Part shown: positions 31,531-33,656 of the stretch, piece after piece
Layout: each line of letters opens with the position of its first letter
Numbering within the stretch: the stretch's first letter is position 1
From: Halovivax limisalsi
GTDB taxonomy: Archaea; Halobacteriota; Halobacteria; Halobacteriales; Natrialbaceae
Length of the DNA: 64,000 bases
Assembly: GCF_023093535.1 (NCBI RefSeq)
Contig: NZ_CP095757.1
Location: 682,001-746,000 of the forward strand
Reading direction: 5' to 3'
Position numbers and translations under genes: made by a program
The notes under the pieces: generated by a model
Seen by the model: the letters and a program-made list of their open reading frames with translations, nothing else
What the model was told of the DNA's origin: nothing
Database searches by the model: none

Positions 31531-32496
31531 TCAGTCGTCGTCGGGCAGCGGCTCCGCGCCGTCGCCCTCGCCGGTAGCCGTTCCCTCCACGAGTCCGTCG
31601 ATCGCCGCCGTTCGTTCGGCCCGGGGCAGGCTCTCGCGGAAGCGTTCGAAGATCCGCCTCGCCTCCGCGAGTTCGGGTTCGCCGACGGCTTTCAGGAGGG
31701 CGAGGGCGCGACGGGCGCGGGTTCGGCGCCAGGAGTGTTCGCGGTGTTCGTAGGTCCGGACGGCCCGGAGGAAGTCGGCTCGCGAGAAGGCGGGCCAGTG
31801 GGGCGTACAGAAGTAGACCGCGGCCTCGTTGCCGTTGGCGTGCCAGGGCAGGAAGTTGGAGGTGCGCTCGTCGCCGCCCGTCCGGATGATGAGGTCGACG
31901 TCCCGGACTGGCCGATCGTAGAGACGCGCTTCGATCGCGTCGACGTCGATCGCGTCCGGGTCGAGGCTGCCGGCGTCGACGTCGCGCGCGACGCTGCGGG
32001 CCGCGGCCAGCAACTCGTTGCGCCCGCCGTAGGCCAGCGCGACGTTGAGTCGGAACGCGTCGTAGCCCTCGGTGCGGGACTCGGCGTAGGTTACGGCGTC
32101 CCGGACGCGTTCGGGCAGGCGTTCGATCTCGCCGATCGCGCGGATACAGACGCCCTCCTCGTGGACGCGTTCGGAATCGGCGAACTCGTGCAATTTCTCG
32201 ACCAGCAAATCGAACAGCGCTTCGTTTTGCTCCGCTGGCCGGTCAAAGTTCTCGGTCGAGAACGTATAGAGGGTCAGTTCCTCCACGCCCAGATCCTGAC
32301 ACCACTCGAGGACGTTTTCGGTGGTCTCCGCACCGGCGCGGTGCCCGGCGGTCGGCGCTTTGCCCTTGCGCCTTGCGTACCGACGGTTGCCGTCCTGGAT
32401 GACGGCGACGTGATCTGGCGCGCGGTCCGTATCGAGTTCGCGCCGGAGCAGCCGCTCGTAATACGCGCGCAGTTTCCGGCGCAGCCCCTGGGGCAT
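31531..32496 (-). CDS. uppS: Polyprenyl (undecaprenyl-type) diphosphate synthase
   Basis: A cis-prenyltransferase of 321 aa, making the long isoprenoid chain used as dolichol-type glycan carrier. Key motifs are the IPP/allylic site HVAVIQDGNRRYARRKG (Asp in QDGN), the TLYTFSTENFDRP segment, ALAYGGRNELLAA, and the C-terminal DLIIRTGGDERTSNFLPWHA with the catalytic RTGGExR-like motif. The unusual IQDGNRR in place of bacterial MDGNGRW is normal in archaea. It is the natural partner of the glycan genes in the second half of the window. Confidence 0.93.
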   Translation of the reverse strand: MPQGLRRKLRAYYERLLRRELDTDRAPDHVAVIQDGNRRYARRKGKAPTAGHRAGAETTENVLEWCQDLGVEELTLYTFSTENFDRPAEQNEALFDLLVEKLHEFADSERVHEEGVCIRAIGEIERLPERVRDAVTYAESRTEGYDAFRLNVALAYGGRNELLAAARSVARDVDAGSLDPDAIDVDAIEARLYDRPVRDVDLIIRTGGDERTSNFLPWHANGNEAAVYFCTPHWPAFSRADFLRAVRTYEHREHSWRRTRARRALALLKAVGEPELAEARRIFERFRESLPRAERTAAIDGLVEGTATGEGDGAEPLPDDD

Positions 32497-32728
32497 CGGT
32501 CCCCTTTTTGCCGTCTCGTGGTATGTGTGTTGTGGATTCCTGTCCGAATCCGTTCACGTTTGGCGGTCCCTACCTGTTGCACGCACCCGCATCGGCGTTT
32601 TCTCGCGATCGACGCTCGCCCGCGCCTTCGACTGGCGACGCTCGCCGACGCCGGCCGCTCCGCATCTCGGCCGCCTCCGTTCGATGAATTCTCCGATCGG
32701 TACGGATGTACTAACAATATAGCAGCAA

Positions 32729-32735
32729 TTTATTA
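32729..32735 (+). promoter_or_regulatory. TATA box of a 40-residue zinc protein gene
   Basis: TTTATTA lies 24-30 bases upstream of the ATG at 32759, within a locally AT-rich stretch. It implies a leaderless transcript and supports the small gene as real. Confidence 0.5.
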
Positions 32736-32758
32736 CGTAGTAAGTGGTAGTAGAATTC

Positions 32759-32881
32759 ATGGGTGAGACGTGTACGTGTCCGGAACCTGATCGGGTCGGG
32801 ACTGTCCCCTGGCAGGACGACTACTGCCGACGCTGTGGAGGACGGCTCGAGGACGAGGTAGAACAGCCGGAGAACATCTAG
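32759..32881 (+). CDS. Zinc-finger micro-protein, 40 aa
   Basis: An intact frame from ATG to TAG encodes 40 residues beginning METCTCPE-like (M-G-E-T-C-T-C-P) and carrying a second pair in YCRRCGG, thus a CxC...CxxC four-cysteine zinc site, with an acidic tail. It has its own TATA-like box. Haloarchaea encode many such one-domain zinc micro-proteins; some affect metabolism or biofilm in Haloferax. This one's function is unknown. Its stop codon TAG is the last three bases of the first CTAG in a downstream CTAG cluster. Confidence 0.65.
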   Translation: MGETCTCPEPDRVGTVPWQDDYCRRCGGRLEDEVEQPENI

Positions 32882-33058
32882 TCCCCGGCGCCCGCTCCCA
32901 TCTAGCGCGTCGAATGCGTCTAGGGCCAGAACGGTCGCCGACGGCCGAGTACGCTGGTCTCTAGAACCGCCGCGCCTCAATCTAGAACGCAGTTCTAGGG
33001 CCTCTTGGTGACGTCTAGATCCGAGAGTCACATCCTCCGGTTCGACCCTGCCGTCTAG
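32878..33058. repeat. Cluster of eight CTAG tetranucleotides
   Basis: CTAG occurs at 32878, 32902, 32920, 32961, 32982, 32995, 33015 and 33055, i.e. eight times in 181 bases. In haloarchaeal genomes this tetranucleotide is normally strongly avoided. Most copies are in the context TCTAG. No long repeat unit joins them and no open frame covers the stretch, which lies between the zinc micro-protein and the convergent DUF457 gene. Confidence 0.7.
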
Positions 33059-33095
33059 GTTCGAGACCGGCCGGTCCGGGGTGACGTCGGATCGG

Positions 33096-33656
33096 CTATC
33101 GGTCGCCGCCGGTGGGAAACCCCGGTCGGTCGATCGCGTCGCGCACGTACGCTAGTCCCGGTCGGCCGTCGCGCAGCCAGACGCCGAGCGCGATCGCACC
33201 GAGGAGGAACTCGACGAGGAAGTACGGCTGCCCGAGCGAGTCGAGTAGCAGCCCCACGATCGTCGGCGGACCGCCCTCGTAGGGTTCGACGGACAGGACC
33301 GGCCACAGCAGCTGGTTCGCGGTTCCGTCGCCCCACAGGCTGGGTACGACGTCGACGAGCGTGTGCGAGAGCGACCCGACGGCGAAGGCGACGCCGACCG
33401 CCGGCCGATCGACGCGCCTGGCGACGAGGAAGACGGCGACGGCGAGCGGGACCAGCAGGAGGAGCGAGTGCGCGAGCGTCCGCCCGGTGGGCAACACCTC
33501 GAGTCGCCAGGCCAGCGGCTTATCGACCAGGTCGGGGAACTGGCTGCCGATCGCGAGCGCGACGATAGTTTCGACCGTCGGTGGCCCGAGTCGACGATAG
33601 CGCCGCCCGACCGCGTACAGGATGTAGGCGACGGCGAGGTGTCCCAGCGGCCACAT
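33096..33656 (-). CDS. DUF457-family membrane metal-dependent hydrolase (YdjM-like)
   Basis: A 186-aa membrane protein with the family's signature: an N-terminal HLAVAYILY, then SQFPDLVDKPLAWRL with metal-type Asp residues, then GRTLAHSLLLLVPLAVAVFL and GSLSHTLVDVVPSLWG, giving the conserved His/Asp pattern of the YdjM/LexA-regulated DUF457 group. Five hydrophobic segments. The biochemical activity of this family is not well established. Confidence 0.85.
   Translation of the reverse strand: MWPLGHLAVAYILYAVGRRYRRLGPPTVETIVALAIGSQFPDLVDKPLAWRLEVLPTGRTLAHSLLLLVPLAVAVFLVARRVDRPAVGVAFAVGSLSHTLVDVVPSLWGDGTANQLLWPVLSVEPYEGGPPTIVGLLLDSLGQPYFLVEFLLGAIALGVWLRDGRPGLAYVRDAIDRPGFPTGGDR

Follow-up and report, generated by a model that had tools for sequence, protein, structure and literature searches.

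A dense, one-strand TCTAG array at a non-origin locus of Halovivax limisalsi

Haloarchaea avoid the tetranucleotide CTAG, yet most of them keep an orphan CTAG methyltransferase, which is a stated open question (PMC6471742). A stretch of 64,000 nucleotides from Halovivax limisalsi, referred to here as the window, has eight CTAG sites gathered in 181 bases of intergenic DNA. The cluster is real and extreme, and no ordinary cause that was tested explains it.

Eight motifs in a CTAG-avoiding genome

The array extends from 32878 to 33058 on the plus strand, with the C of CTAG at 32878, 32902, 32920, 32961, 32982, 32995, 33015 and 33055, giving site-to-site spacings of 24, 18, 41, 21, 13, 20 and 40. 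All eight sites listed in the initial annotation were recovered both by reading the sequence and by pattern scan, while its description of them as mostly TCTAG was too cautious, since T precedes CTAG in 8/8 and the motif is therefore TCTAG, on the plus strand throughout. The first copy includes the stop codon TAG (32879-32881) of a gene for a 40-residue zinc-ribbon micro-protein. A short extension of the motif, TCTAGNNC, is found at seven of the eight sites, and the site positions favour one helical face, a marginal and weak signal (P 0.02 for the single period of 10.5 bp; P 0.07 for 10-11 bp). Extension and helical tendency are weak hints of a DNA-binding protein. Two of the sites are linked by a perfect 7-bp inverted repeat read directly at 32982-32998 on the plus strand (CTAGAAC-GCA-GTTCTAG), a single case that may be incidental. 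The G+C content of the array is 63%.

CTAG is avoided in the window, because dinucleotide shuffles predict 92.6 copies and it has 33; the rRNA operon accounts for 10 of these and the array for 8. The background rate was taken from a 211-kb sample (5%) of the 3.89-Mb genome, which contained 64 CTAG (0.30/kb) and at most 3 per 181 bases. At this rate the Poisson chance of eight CTAG in 181 bases is ~2e-15, and without avoidance it is 4e-10. None of 20,000 simulations reached eight copies when the local 554 bases supplied the Markov model, itself inflated by the composition of the array. CTAG is avoided in the sample as well as in the window, and the counts exclude plain chance by a wide margin.

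Clusters this dense might still have been common genome-wide by chance, a possibility raised at the outset; they are uncommon in this genome. A genome-wide pattern scan for three CTAG with gaps of 9-38 returned only three places in 3.89 Mb: the 16S rRNA gene, the TCTAG array and, next to an AbrB-like gene at 814.2 kb, a weak three-copy site. The array is the one dense CTAG cluster of the genome outside rRNA, and it is located away from oriC1. The 814.2-kb site (G000:C1:814227; L220:8227-8287) holds three CTAG in 61 bases between AbrB-like and peptidase-like genes and has an outer inverted repeat, CCTAGCT/AGCTAGG.

The locus and its ordinary explanations

The gene order is an uppS-type cis-prenyltransferase gene (31531-32496, minus strand), the zinc micro-protein gene (32759-32881, plus strand), a YdjM-type membrane protein gene (33096-33656, minus strand), an epimerase gene and rdfA. 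The cluster indeed follows the zinc gene and lies between convergent genes, as first described, the zinc gene and its right neighbour being the convergent pair. The only congener sharing the order uppS, YdjM-type gene, epimerase and rdfA is G002, in which ~0.1 kb separates uppS from the YdjM-type gene, compared with 0.6 kb in the window. The additional ~0.5 kb (32541-33061, edges approximate) contains the zinc gene, with the array at its right end. Gene order differs at this place in the other congeners, and either gain in this genome or loss from G002 would account for the block. A search of 125 family genomes found no DNA relative of the array, which is also absent from its orthologous place in G002. 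The initial annotation had named absence of the cluster from close relatives of the same gene order as a result that would speak against it; G002 gives that result in form, but G002 lacks the whole block, zinc gene included.

Coding was rejected on both strands. The initial annotation's statement that no open frame crosses the cluster held for the plus strand in the frame of the zinc gene, which is broken by five TAG, and failed for the minus strand, where a frame is open across the array (32711-33031). In that frame CTAG would be read as CTA-GAN or TCT-AGA, which are rare codons in haloarchaea generally. Pyrrolysine-type read-through was also rejected, as the sites occupy two frames.

The initial annotation had offered an RNA with conserved CUAG as one explanation, for which no support was found: the array folded no better than shuffles on either strand (z -0.35 and -1.42) and matched no Rfam family. 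A related possibility is that an RNA-binding protein reads the UCUAG copies as part of a 3' untranslated region in the mRNA of the zinc gene, consistent with the placement of all motifs on the sense strand of that gene and with the inclusion of its stop codon in the first. A linear motif would be invisible to folding, so the fold scores bear on it only in part; the missing Rfam match and the other members of the zinc family, which do not have the element, also speak against it, and this RNA reading is distinctly improbable.

No array was detected at the cluster by Tandem Repeats Finder, autocorrelation stayed at shuffle level with no periodic repeat, and the flanks of the eight sites resembled one another no more than random positions do (P 0.09). 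The sites are unlike the products of a recent duplication, because only TCTAG recurs, the flanks are unlike and periodicity is lacking; tandem duplication was rejected, its units not being alike beyond the core motif.

A mobile element or virus was rejected, since DNA searches of plasmids and phages gave no match to the array; the hairpin pattern gave 65 scattered short matches in viral contigs. An insertion sequence of ~0.98 kb is present in several copies in the congener G001, with relatives in G002 (L269, L272, L276, L278, L267, L277), and one of its ends in G001 carries four CTAG in 51 bases just upstream of a transposase-like gene. Such CTAG-rich ends, together with the species-specific and unconserved ~0.5-kb block, lend something to the idea that the array is functionless, having arisen in new intergenic DNA either through an accident of mutation or as the terminus of a mobile element since lost. 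However, the array shows no homology to the G001 insertion sequence any more than to plasmids or phages, the counts exclude plain chance, and no mutational process known to us yields TCTAG alone. An array of no function is on this evidence unlikely.

The adjacent 40-residue protein is a four-cysteine member of a zinc micro-protein family with ~54 members in genomes of the host's family, marked by an invariant C, TV-WQ and CxxC (pattern TVPWQxDxCxxCG); no Pfam or NCBIfam model matched the family above cut-off. Its genes (L012-L041, L281-L328) are often near YdjM-type, epimerase, sugar-nucleotidyltransferase or GlmS-type genes. A strong motif array stands just downstream of 3/54 members, this one included: directly downstream of L036 (G002:C1:1841398) lies a 26-nt repeat in eight copies, and directly downstream of L040 (G028:C10:63938) lies CTCGAGAG six times in ~25/49-nt units. 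The excess of downstream arrays gave P 0.003 when compared with all tiles, rising to P 0.10 if a worst-case intergenic background is assumed. A general link between the family and downstream motif arrays is possible, a lead rather than a result, as significance is lost once the strictest background is applied.

The regulatory array suggested in the initial annotation is compatible with the recurrence of TCTAG alone, without its flanks. One form of it would be an operator array, in which a regulator of, for example, the zinc gene or its convergent neighbour recognises TCTAG regardless of methylation and the CTAG core is a coincidence. The strict orientation in 8/8 sites, the start of the array at the stop codon of the zinc gene and the 7/8 agreement with TCTAGNNC all suit such a regulator, as does the Halobacterium zinc micro-protein Brz, which regulates transcription of its neighbour bop (PMC2253796). 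Operators are unusual at a position 3' of both flanking genes, though, and no TCTAG array follows the other members of the zinc family, so that an operator blind to methylation is a possible but rather unlikely explanation.

A probable CTAG methyltransferase and origin-linked clusters

The genome encodes a PF01555 protein with an SPPY motif, which is present in all five congeners and shares 50% identity with the methyltransferase of plasmid pFZ1, whose gene adjoins an MjaI-family nuclease. M.MthZI, from the organism that carries pFZ1, is a characterised m4C CTAG enzyme, mthZIM being plasmid-encoded, and SPPY occurs in the Haloferax homologue of the CTAG methyltransferase (PMC5867850, PMC6471742). 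Judged by these resemblances, the PF01555 protein is probably a CTAG N4-cytosine methyltransferase.

Blow et al. 2016 (PMC4752239) described clustering of CTAG at the orc genes of haloarchaea and a correlation of these clusters with an orphan m4C CTAG methyltransferase; the running text there prints CATG and the figure legend CTAG. Both points were discussed for Haloferax by Ouellette et al. 2018 (PMC5867850). The 125 family genomes were searched for three TCTAG within ~90 bases, and the main origin was the recurrent match in the loci read, where an Orc1/Cdc6 gene adjoins a stretch rich in both CTAG and A+T that is flanked by ORB elements. Among 45 CTAG-rich loci examined, which are those fetched rather than a complete list, every locus with at least 6 CTAG in 181 bases except this array has an Orc1/Cdc6 homologue within 1.5 kb, the threshold having been set after the loci were viewed. 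The origin clusters mostly have 39-56% G+C, compared with 63% in the array, and most are mixed in orientation, against 8/8 on one strand here, with 7/8 in one cluster beside an Orc paralogue. The link to CTAG methylation proposed in the initial annotation is compatible with this picture of a probable methyltransferase in the genome and dense clusters at origins in relatives.

Many genomes of the host's family do have an origin CTAG cluster. Across five genomes of the genus (L198-L202; G000-G004), the numbers of CTAG within 1.5 kb of orc1 are 0, 0, 0, 0 and 2, and the host's own oriC1 has none within that distance. Methyltransferase and oriC1 cluster are thus uncoupled in this genus, because the enzyme gene is present while the orc1 loci are without a CTAG cluster.

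It could be supposed that the array is what is left of a replication origin, or a part moved away from one, that lost its orc gene, as the other examined loci of such density are all Orc-linked and the genome's oriC1 is without CTAG. The window, however, contains no Orc1/Cdc6 homologue, the nearest strong one being ~200 kb away, and ORB-core matches (up to 3 mismatches) number 15 against 20 expected from shuffles, with none in the cluster. Since the G+C content also departs from that of the origin clusters and G002 keeps the same gene order without the array, an origin remnant is very unlikely.

A proposed protein-bound array and its known counterparts

The reading we tentatively prefer, at somewhat less than even confidence, is that a protein binds this one-lineage array as DNA, through its short directional motif, at a non-origin locus, and that CTAG methylation plausibly tunes it. 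Selection would keep TCTAG in a spacer whose other bases vary freely, and a sequence-specific protein would bind it, in a single copy or several. The conserved haloarchaeal CTAG methyltransferase would act on the CTAG core, and the protein would read the methylation or hemimethylation state of the grouped sites, as might happen at origin clusters, here at a locus that is not an origin. We consider it most likely to work in the manner of the origin clusters, because the core is the methyltransferase target and comparable clusters in the family lie at Orc1/Cdc6 origins. Binding by a protein, the role of methylation and any effect on the zinc gene or a neighbour are what we infer from this arrangement. 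Several observations count against the preferred reading: the array occurs in one genome only, so that the 125 family genomes offer none of the conservation by which function is usually proved; the motif is TCTAG rather than CTAG alone; most origin clusters are of mixed orientation; and the phasing signal is marginal.

A more specific proposal, which we consider improbable as it stands, is a methylation-read CTAG array used away from the origin, for example for titrating or parking a protein of replication or of chromatin, the genus having no CTAG cluster at oriC1. If true, it would mean epigenetic control by grouped m4C sites at an archaeal chromosomal locus. Lying off the origin, the array could let the influence of CTAG methylation on binding and expression be studied separately from replication.

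Three known systems can be set beside this locus. Haloarchaeal zinc-finger micro-proteins (PMC6562870, PMC11241148; Brz, PMC2253796) resemble the product of the adjacent 40-residue, four-cysteine gene and its family-wide set; the TVPWQxDxCxxCG family differs in being unmatched above cut-off by Pfam or NCBIfam, and any regulatory role for it is putative. The GATC cluster of the Escherichia coli oriC, read by Dam and SeqA (PMC6471742), offers a model of grouped methylation sites read in the hemimethylated state, whereas the array is not at an origin and a SeqA-like reader for it would be hypothetical. The array also resembles the origin-linked haloarchaeal CTAG clusters (PMC4752239, PMC5867850), which are likewise intergenic, with 6-9 CTAG per ~180 bases in a CTAG-avoiding genome that encodes a CTAG-type methyltransferase. 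In contrast, the array has no Orc1/Cdc6 or ORB nearby, is G+C-rich, keeps TCTAG on one strand and belongs to one species, and the host's own oriC1 is without CTAG. Most of the dense clusters seen in this analysis lie at origins, where such clusters are known (Blow et al. 2016, PMC4752239); this one is equally dense but lies off the origin, in a genus whose oriC1 has none.
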